Source: an uncultured Bacteroidales bacterium (GTDB lineage: Bacteria; Bacteroidota; Bacteroidia; Bacteroidales; UBA932). From it: a stretch of DNA of 35,301 bases. The DNA is taken from the NCBI GenBank assembly GCA_905235535.1, contig CAJOLS010000013.1, forward strand, positions 1-35,301. Direction: 5' to 3'. The position numbers and the translations under genes were made by a program. Within the stretch, counting starts at the first letter, position 1. Every line of letters begins with the position of its first letter. Below are positions 23,803-25,866 of the stretch, piece after piece. Below the pieces are notes generated by a model. The model worked only from the letters and a program-made list of their open reading frames with translations. It did not search any database and had not been told where the DNA came from.

Positions 23803-24846
23803 TTATTTGCTTATTTCACCGCACAGGTCTTTTTCCAGAAGAGTTTTGACACGGGTGTTGTCCGGGGTCCGTCCCATGAGGCAAAACAATTTTCCAAGGG
23901 CCGCTTCGGTGGTAATATCGCCCCCTGAGAGCACTCCAGCGTGTTTGAGGCGGGAACCGGTGGCATACAGATCCATGTTCACGGTTCCGGATTTACACTG
24001 GGTTACATTCAGCAGCACCTTGCCGCCGTCGCAGGCTTCCCTTAGAATATCTATAAACCAGTCCTTGGACGGAGCGTTCCCGCTGCCGTAGGTTTCCAGG
24101 ATTACGGCGCGGGTGTGAGGGTCGCTCACCACCGAGCGCATGACCTGCGGAGTGATGCCGGGATGCACTTTCAAAATGGCCACGCTGGTGTCCAGCCGGG
24201 TCTGCACGCGCAGCTGGGAATCCCAGTACACGGGTTTGCGGATGATATCCGTGTTGTAGCGGATGTTGATGCCGGCCTCGGCCAGGGGTGGGCAGTTGGG
24301 GGAGGCGAAGGCGTTGAAGGCCTCGGCGCTGTATTTGGTGGAGCGGTTGCCCCGCAGGAGCTTGGAGTCGAAGAAAATGGACACTTCCGGCACGCGGGCA
24401 TGGCCTTTTTCGTCTTTGGCGGCGGCAATTTCCACGGCCGATATGAGGTTCTCCTTCCCGTCGGTGCGCGGCACTCCTATGGGCAGCTGGCTGCCGGTGA
24501 ACACCACCGGTTTGGCCAGGCCTTCCAGCATGAAACTGAGCGTGGAGGCGCTGTAGGCCATGGTGTCCGTCCCGTGCAGGACCACAAATCCGTCATAATC
24601 CTCATAGCGCTCCAGGATGAGCCGCGCCAGGGAAATCCAGAGCGAGGGCTCCACGTCGGAGGAGTCGATGAGCGGGTCGAAGGTGTAGGAATCCAGCTTG
24701 ACGGCAAACTTGTTCAGTTCCGGGACTTCCTCCTTGATCTGGCTGAAGTCGAAGGGTTTGAGGGTGCCGTCGGAAGGGTCTTCCTTCATGCCGATAGTGC
24801 CGCCGGTGTAGATAATCAGTATAGAAGAGCTCATTTCATGAACCAT
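23803..24846 (-). CDS. ansA: Type I L-asparaginase
   Basis: IIYTGGTIGM, VVLHGTDTMAYSASTLSFML, PVVFTGSQLPIG motifs. Confidence 0.95.
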   Translation of the reverse strand: MVHEMSSSILIIYTGGTIGMKEDPSDGTLKPFDFSQIKEEVPELNKFAVKLDSYTFDPLIDSSDVEPSLWISLARLILERYEDYDGFVVLHGTDTMAYSASTLSFMLEGLAKPVVFTGSQLPIGVPRTDGKENLISAVEIAAAKDEKGHARVPEVSIFFDSKLLRGNRSTKYSAEAFNAFASPNCPPLAEAGINIRYNTDIIRKPVYWDSQLRVQTRLDTSVAILKVHPGITPQVMRSVVSDPHTRAVILETYGSGNAPSKDWFIDILREACDGGKVLLNVTQCKSGTVNMDLYATGSRLKHAGVLSGGDITTEAALGKLFCLMGRTPDNTRVKTLLEKDLCGEISK

Positions 24847-25691
24847 TAAATGTTAAAGAGTGTAATGGCGTTGTTTGTTGTAATGTTTTCTATTTCCTGT
24901 AGGCTTTTTCCCTTGATTTCGGCCACTTTGGCGGCCACGTAGGGGAGGTAGGCGCTCTCGTTGCGCTGGCCGCGGAAGGGAACGGGGGCCAGGTAGGGAG
25001 CGTCGGTTTCCAGCAGGATTTTCTCTATGGGAATGCGCTCCAGCGTCCTGGCTATGGAGGCGTTCTTGAAGGTGACCACCCCGCCGATTCCCACGGAGAA
25101 ATCCCCGTACTTGTCGGCCCTCTGAAAAATCTCGTAGCTGGAAGTGAAGCAGTGGAGATTTCCTCTCAGGTTCAGGTGTTTACAATCGGCCAGAATGGCT
25201 AAAAAGTCTTCCCATGCATCCCTCAGGTGGATGTTTACCGGCAGGTCCAGGGAAGCGGCCAGCTCCAGCTGCAGCCTCAGCACCTCCTTCTGCTCCTGGA
25301 CATAGTCCAACCCTTCGTGATAGTCAAGGCCGATCTCGCCGATAGCGACGACCGTTGCTATCGGTGAAATATTCGTTTCACTCACCGGGGGCCTGATTCC
25401 CCGGGCCCCCGGGGTTGCATCGCTCCGGATCTGTTGGTTTTTTGCAAGGGAGAAAACCAGGTCCAGTTCCTCCCGCCAGTCGGCCGCTACGGAGCCGGGA
25501 TACAGGCCCAGCATCTGGAAGAGGACCCCGGGATGCCTCCGGCCGATTTCCCACATGGCGGGGCGCTCGCGGGAGTCCACATCGGCCTGGATCATCCTGC
25601 CCACACCGGCTTCCAAAGCACGCTGAATGGCCGCCTCCGCATCCGGCAGCAGCCACTTGTCGTAAAAGTGCGTATGGGTGTCCACGAACAT
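24846..25691 (-). CDS. tatD: TatD family hydrolase with an in-frame inserted segment
   Basis: MFVDTHTHFYD, VAIGEIGLDYHEGLDYVQEQKEV, LETDAPYLAPVPFRGQRNE; start placed after the TATCTTTG at 25698-25705. Confidence 0.92.
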   Translation of the reverse strand: MFVDTHTHFYDKWLLPDAEAAIQRALEAGVGRMIQADVDSRERPAMWEIGRRHPGVLFQMLGLYPGSVAADWREELDLVFSLAKNQQIRSDATPGARGIRPPVSETNISPIATVVAIGEIGLDYHEGLDYVQEQKEVLRLQLELAASLDLPVNIHLRDAWEDFLAILADCKHLNLRGNLHCFTSSYEIFQRADKYGDFSVGIGGVVTFKNASIARTLERIPIEKILLETDAPYLAPVPFRGQRNESAYLPYVAAKVAEIKGKSLQEIENITTNNAITLFNI

Positions 25692-25697
25692 ACCCTG

Positions 25698-25705
25698 CAA
25701 AGATA
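25698..25705 (-). promoter_or_regulatory. -7 element TATCTTTG just upstream of tatD
   Basis: Minus strand TATCTTTG, 6 nt before the proposed ATG; implies a very short leader. Confidence 0.45.
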
Positions 25706-25866
25706 CGCAAAAATCCCTCATCTTGGGCCAGGTGGGATTTCATGTGGCCCACCGCGCCCGCTTTTTTTGCACAGCAGGTTCTGAAAGGCCAAAATGATGG
25801 GCCAGGAGGTACATATAAAAGAGGCCGCTGCAAAACTCAGAATGACCTGCAACGGAAAGGGCTGGA

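Follow-up and report, generated by a model that had tools for sequence, protein, structure and literature searches.

An in-frame insert in tatD of a rumen Bacteroidales bacterium belongs to a dispersed palindromic repeat family with a site-specific hairpin on its 3' side

The tatD gene of an uncultured Bacteroidales bacterium is interrupted, in frame, by a copy of a palindromic mobile repeat, about 75-110 bp long and non-autonomous. The gene lies in the window, which is the whole stretch of 35,301 nucleotides that was analysed. Copies of the repeat are dispersed both within and between genes, orthologous sites without it are found in related genomes, its core hairpin covaries among the copies, and the frame of interrupted genes is kept. 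The newly seen feature is a coupling to a hairpin on the 3' side of the element: the repeat is found at a nearly fixed distance from a DNA stem-loop and in a fixed orientation relative to it.

The insert is carried by a minus-strand ORF listed at 24846-25721 (291 aa). The ORF opens at 25721, and the probable start of the protein is the ATG of MFVDTHTHF (Table 1). The extra residues are located between LAKN and VVAIGEIGLDYH. Nearly all congeneric TatD proteins are without the segment, such as that of genome G028, which reads LAKEKADAVVAIGEIG. This makes a net difference of about 24 aa, or 72 nt, with LAKNQQIRSDATPGARGIRPPVSETNISPIATVVAIGEIGLDYH in the window versus LAKEKADAVVAIGEIGLDYH or shorter in the genus, close to the 25 or so extra residues before VAIGEIGLDY estimated from the sequence-only reading. 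TatD proteins of solved structure align on either side of the segment, not through it, and in an AlphaFold2 model built from four sequences the segment is predicted as low-confidence coil (pLDDT about 24-43; mean 62). The strand folds more stably than its own shuffles (z -2.2). An Rfam scan of 24800-25800 gave one chance match below the gathering score and no known RNA family; no ribozyme domain of the kind found in group IIC introns was recognised in that scan.

Table 1. Features of the tatD insert (positions in the window; inverted repeats are given as read on the plus strand)
Feature	Position	Strand	Evidence
tatD (TatD-related DNase), carrier of the insert	24846..25691	-	ORF list; Pfam TatD_DNase, E 5.8e-65; congeneric orthologues
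Whole inserted segment	25353..25432 (either end approximate by a few bases)	-	TatD proteins without the insert (G028 and others)
Conserved core of the repeat, 46 nt, peptide (R)SDATPGARGIRPP	25384..25429	-	27-copy alignment; covariance model match C13:25369-25429
Core hairpin CCGGGGGCC..GGCCCCCGG, with compensatory changes among copies	25385..25412	-	Pair counts
Short variable tail GAGTGAAACGAATATTTCA from the core to the terminal hairpin; a mini-hairpin in many copies	25365..25383	-	Copy sequences
Terminal hairpin, insert-side arm, inverted copy of native tatD, CCGATAGC on the minus strand	25357..25364	-	
Terminal hairpin, native arm, GCTATCGG on the minus strand, encoding AIG of VAIGEIGLDY	25339..25346	-	
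First inverted repeat, CCGATAGC with GCTATCGG	25339-25346 with 25357-25364	+	
Middle inverted repeat, GTGAAA-TATTCG-TTTCAC	25364-25381	+	
Third inverted repeat, CCGGGGGCC with GGCCCCCGG	25385-25393 with 25404-25412	+	

The three consecutive inverted repeats described in the sequence-only reading are all present, and the placement of the last two inside the insertion holds. The placement of the first does not: one of its arms is native tatD, and the insert holds the other arm only. The middle hairpin corresponds to the variable mini-hairpin, while the third is a part of the dispersed repeat and covaries between copies.

Further copies were located by BLAST and HMM searches. A 131-bp query revealed two more copies on other contigs of the same genome (E 1.7e-15 and 1.3e-10), a pattern search of this genome found six more family-like copies, and a covariance model recovered 10 copies in it. 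Because these searches recover further copies in the genome, the hairpins of the window are not due to chance. With the covariance model, copies were found from 53 of the 101 genomes of the genus, up to 25 in one relative; judging by their record titles these are metagenome assemblies of rumen-type Bacteroidales, and the numbers of copies are lower bounds. Aligned with one another, 27 copies share a conserved 5' part in addition to the hairpin with compensatory changes. About two thirds of the copies are outside genes, and the intergenic ones often adjoin terminator-like hairpins. The ends of the element, including the left end, are not sharply defined, and no target-site duplication was recognised by eye at the empty sites.

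An exact 29-base pattern matched 81 stretches among 84,980 species genomes. These belong to uncultured Bacteroidales/Bacteroidia bins, many of them with titles that name rumen, reticulum or omasum, with the single exception of one core copy on a short contig in a Clostridia bin (L275; CAMVNL010000349.1, 3,250 bp), perhaps misbinned or else acquired by transfer. No Rickettsia record was among the matches. Phage, plasmid and viral collections contained no copy, and an origin from phages or plasmids was rejected on this basis. No linked mobilising gene was found in a partner search that covered Y1 transposases: none of the 20 Y1 transposase loci examined is flanked by the core, and two have a copy kilobases away. 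Co-occurrence of the core and Y1 transposases is weak (33 of 53, p 0.047) and confounded by genome completeness. RAYT was rejected as the linked mobiliser, since Y1 transposases are common yet the core does not flank the loci examined.

In the genome of the window, the genes interrupted in frame are tatD, pmbA/tldE, rlmN and a CBM9-like gene. The PmbA/TldE protein and RlmN carry RSEATQGARGIRPPVSETN and RSEATQGGRGIRPPDCETD in a frame identical to that of the tatD copy; the copy in the CBM9-like gene is in antisense orientation and also in frame. One RlmN (L007, G000:C63, 786..1952) has the C-terminus GDSSLRSE, the peptide of a widespread TCATTCTGAGCG..GAAGAATCT repeat, so that its end and stop codon come from a second repeat.

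The survey of coding copies drew on 162 distinct copies, and 40 ORFs spanning a copy were run against Pfam. A named Pfam family was assigned to 37 of the 40 (no match for L209, L221 and L237). About 30 families are represented, many of them housekeeping: TatD, PmbA/TldD, RlmN, CBM9, MnmA, TsaB, PurL (at two sites), PurH, DnaG, an ArgD-type aminotransferase, DnaX, RsmA, AtpG, HydF, RdgB, an HrpB-like helicase, a YgiQ-like radical SAM protein, a HemW-like protein, 5-FTHF cyclo-ligase, chorismate synthase, an RND pump, a PBP, an ABC exporter, and others. Names finer than the Pfam family were assigned from conserved motifs. The three unmatched ORFs were dropped from the list of spanning ORFs, together with three more: L240 is a two-gene junction, L044 adjoins a tRNA, and L204 was judged to be spurious. 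Both orientations and all six frames are in use among the coding copies. Selection of the repeat for openness in six frames was considered and rejected: 24% of the cores are open versus 22% of shuffled sequences of the same composition, and the openness follows from the high G+C content.

Spanning ORFs are in frame by construction, and a test based on codon usage was therefore performed on copies with a coding signal on both sides. Among the 39 copies with same-strand coding on both sides, 24 are within one open ORF. The other 15 are located at the end of a gene or between two intact-looking genes (tyrA|aroG, speA|methyltransferase, fucI|fucP, rsgA|MATE). No frame-broken gene was found in these 39 cases, nor in four weaker cases that were inspected; selection therefore keeps the frame. 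Judging from the kept frame, the repeat is very probably translated within the host protein. At one locus, the HemW-like gene of L196 (G080:C49:1-2900), two tandem cores 75 nt apart and a third similar unit are in frame, and thus multiplication keeps the frame as well. The proposal of an in-frame, protein-coding palindromic element comparable to those of Rickettsia was accordingly supported by the dispersed copies and by the other host genes interrupted in frame.

Core-free orthologues were examined for tatD, mnmA, tsaB, pmbA, rlmN, purL, purH and hrpB, and empty orthologous sites were found for tatD, mnmA, tsaB, purL, rlmN, hrpB and pmbA. The comparison shows solely in-frame gains, located in tolerant loops. 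The outcome that had been named as speaking against the element, a segment conserved in most related TatD proteins with no dispersed DNA copies, is the opposite of what the orthologue alignment and the genome search revealed: most TatD proteins of the genus lack the segment, and DNA copies are dispersed in genes and intergenic regions.

The loops hosting the core tolerate insertion, and other repeats are found in the same loops. In tsaB of the same genome, repeats of the TGTCATTCTGAGCGCAGCGAAGAATCT type are in frame in the same loop with the peptide CHSERSEES, and both mnmA of this genome and rlmN of G005 carry GTCAT-hairpin repeats in frame. More widely, GTCAT-hairpin-ATCT repeats (CHSERSEES, GVMAGPDRPS and similar peptides) are in frame in the same loops of mnmA, tsaB, pmbA and rlmN, both in this genome and in relatives; the loci are L304 (G000:C40, mnmA), L307 (G000:C37, tsaB), L300, L308, L314 and L319. 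A further palindromic family, with the peptide ATLGTLRGGT..GGAERSEAVEPPE, is in frame in purH of several other genomes (L327, L329, L330, L331; L192 is listed with these loci) and likewise in a phospholipase-D-like gene. A PTPDGAGPSRSRGHGRPR-like peptide recurs in several genomes within rsmA, and also within a penicillin-binding protein (L201, L360, L361, L362, L124) and is probably one more in-frame repeat family. The tatD loop of G034 (L074) contains a long in-frame tandem repeat rich in Thr, Ala and Pro, unrelated to the core. At L157 (G028:C18:19500-23500), a Y1 (RAYT-like) transposase gene is located between inverted GTCAT-type repeats near 1323 and 2659, an arrangement that looks like a REPtron.

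A hairpin with a score of at least 8 is found on the 3' side in 75% of the copies, versus 4.8% of control windows. On the 5' side, the same threshold is reached in 7% of coding copies and 24% of other copies; a two-sided hairpin was rejected, as the 5' side of coding copies is near the background. In 600 kb of unique coding DNA, 17 hairpins with a score of at least 10 are located 3' of a core, none is located 5' of one, and about 16 are found elsewhere. The spacing between core and hairpin is 11-21 nt (10th-90th percentile), with a second subtype at 26-44 nt. The terminal hairpin is near-perfect, its loop is mostly 3-5 nt, and its sequence is unique to each site. In genes, the distal arm consists of native codons and the core-proximal arm is their inverted copy. 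About a quarter of the copies are without a clear terminal hairpin, including the rlmN copy of the genome of the window.

The purL gene illustrates this relationship. The hairpins are GAACATCAACAAC..GTTGTTGATGTTC in G090, GAACATCAGGAG..CTCCTGATGTTC in G033, and GAACATCAGC..GCTGATGTTC in a third genome; each fits the synonymous codons of its own gene, and five empty purL genes are without a hairpin. Where the arms of orthologous inserts differ in a base pair, the difference is compensated in 15 cases and uncompensated in 2, in registers trimmed by hand and among sequence pairs that are not independent. A hairpin with one native arm, joining the insert to the host sequence, is the general rule of the family.

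Two processes can be considered for the origin of this hairpin. The preferred reading, held with moderate confidence, joins a mobile palindromic repeat with insertion guided by stem-loops and later upkeep of the hairpin by template switching. Copies of the repeat would travel as single-stranded DNA, for example at replication forks, with a stem-loop serving as the landing mark and terminators as the usual one. Stem-loops within tolerant gene loops would be hit as well; only in-frame, stop-free insertions would survive, so that the host protein would gain from the repeat a translated loop of about 20-40 aa. DNA template switching, by which perfect hairpins are known to arise and be maintained (PMC8794818), may then create or maintain the coding hairpins, one arm staying an inverted copy of native codons. 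The main rival reverses the order: the hairpin is a product of the insertion itself, in which either the inserted single-stranded element, at its 3' end, or a nascent strand at the target folds back and copies about 8-19 nt of the right flank before joining. Inserts would then end in an inverted copy of their own target flank, and sites with a hairpin only would be scars of core loss. Such a route, in which a strand primes a short fold-back copy of the target and every insert builds its own near-perfect hairpin in gene and in frame, would be undescribed; it is regarded as possible, though doubtful. The two differ in the order of events. Hairpin scores are 7-16 at occupied coding sites and mostly 4-6 at empty ones (p 3.5e-8, with related rows and with the core's own hairpin as the best at a few occupied sites), which favours a hairpin made with the insertion. 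Most empty coding sites, rlmI and rsmA among them, are without a hairpin, so the preferred reading must assume hairpins that arose in single lineages. Where empty sites were compared, the non-native arm adjoins the core and the native arm is distal, as expected from fold-back copying; among three tsaB and four tatD inserts, the hairpin differs from insert to insert and matches the insert's own flank. In addition, rsmA of G008 retains a core-like peptide remnant (DRSEATQ) with a 7-bp hairpin, so partial loss of the core can happen. Against fold-back, coding hairpins without a core are not very rare, and those in hrpB of G156 and tatD of G028 contain no recognisable core remnant. At tRNA-Leu, G005 and G019 have the core beside a terminator-like hairpin, and core-less relatives have such hairpins too. 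Stem-loop guidance with template-switch maintenance is kept as the preferred reading.

It is improbable that the arms stay complementary through selection on an RNA structure, be it for termination, mRNA stability or attenuation, and not through a DNA process. The compensatory arm changes and the many intergenic copies adjoining terminator-like hairpins would fit such selection, but template switching accounts for compensatory multi-base changes without selection (PMC8794818), and a shared RNA role is unlikely for a pattern that recurs deep in unrelated genes, whichever way the element is oriented to transcription. Removal of the insert as a mini-intron or by translational bypass, which would leave it absent from the protein, is suggested by its location in conserved enzymes, for example immediately ahead of MFKNETHNHPTEI of PurL, and by strong hairpins typical of such elements. 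This is very improbable: splicing or bypass would not need the frame that is kept in every in-gene case tested, the in-gene copies are stop-free, their gains at empty sites are solely in frame and in tolerant loops, and Rfam gave no match. An explanation of the segment as an ordinary lineage-specific protein loop, or as a functional peptide module, is hardly credible. One peptide does recur across several proteins; nevertheless, six frames and both orientations give unrelated peptides, most copies are outside genes, it is the DNA structure that is conserved, and the same loops of other species hold unrelated repeats or nothing.

Among known systems, Rickettsia palindromic elements (RPEs; Ogata et al. 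2000, 2002), in the descriptions given in PMC10969869 and PMC3767692, provide the nearest precedent: they are in-frame palindromic inserts in many genes, and one site of orthologous genes can hold different RPE families (PMC3767692). By comparison with these descriptions, the repeat analysed here works like an RPE. It is a dispersed palindromic family with many copies per genome and a covarying core hairpin, inserted in pre-existing ORFs with the frame unbroken and with empty orthologous sites present. Like RPEs and the Wolbachia palindromic elements (about 100-150 bp), several such families occur per genome, and as with RPEs they are in frame in many unrelated genes and also intergenic. The hosts differ, being apparently free-living rumen bacteria of another phylum, and all six frames are used here. 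The one-sided, site-specific hairpin with a distal arm of native host sequence also differs from RPEs as described in these two papers.

REP elements are classified into GTAG and CGTC classes with RAYT/TnpAREP transposases; the CGTC class has been reported from Bacteroidetes among others, intragenic REPs of both classes are already known, and no Y1 transposase flanked by CGTC units is reported in that work (PMC3733652). The repeat shares with REPs its short palindromic form and its mainly intergenic, at times intragenic location. Its core is longer, however, has no GTAG or CGTC tag at the ends of its consensus, and, unlike GTAG-class REPs, is not adjacent to Y1 transposase (RAYT) genes. It is the GTCAT repeats of the same loops, not the core, that resemble CGTC-class REPs. 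Group IIC introns insert after terminators, and some insertion sequences target REP or attC stem-loops. The repeat resembles these elements in adjoining stem-loops with fixed spacing and orientation, but it is far shorter, has no ribozyme domain recognised by Rfam and no reverse transcriptase or transposase, and is in frame in genes. Template-switch hairpins (PMC8794818) and the coding palindromes of Nematomorpha mitochondria (PMC6649704) are similarly near-perfect, with compensatory arm changes and in coding sequence too, but no mobile repeat is linked to them. In the open-access literature, no named Bacteroidota equivalent with hairpin coupling was found, and no description of such coupling was found for RPEs or REPs.

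In-frame palindromic inserts have so far been described mainly from Rickettsia and relatives. Here they are found from a rumen Bacteroidales genus, in gene families that include purL, purH, mnmA, tsaB, rsmA, dnaG and atpG and extend to highly conserved enzymes, and several unrelated repeat families land in the same loops. Empty and filled sites across dozens of related genomes provide a system for asking how selfish repeats become protein and which protein loops tolerate them, and the mechanism of insertion can be tested directly through the one-sided coupling to a hairpin. These observations suggest that DNA stem-loops act as landing marks or arise during insertion, and that parasitic DNA is repeatedly able to become part of working proteins.
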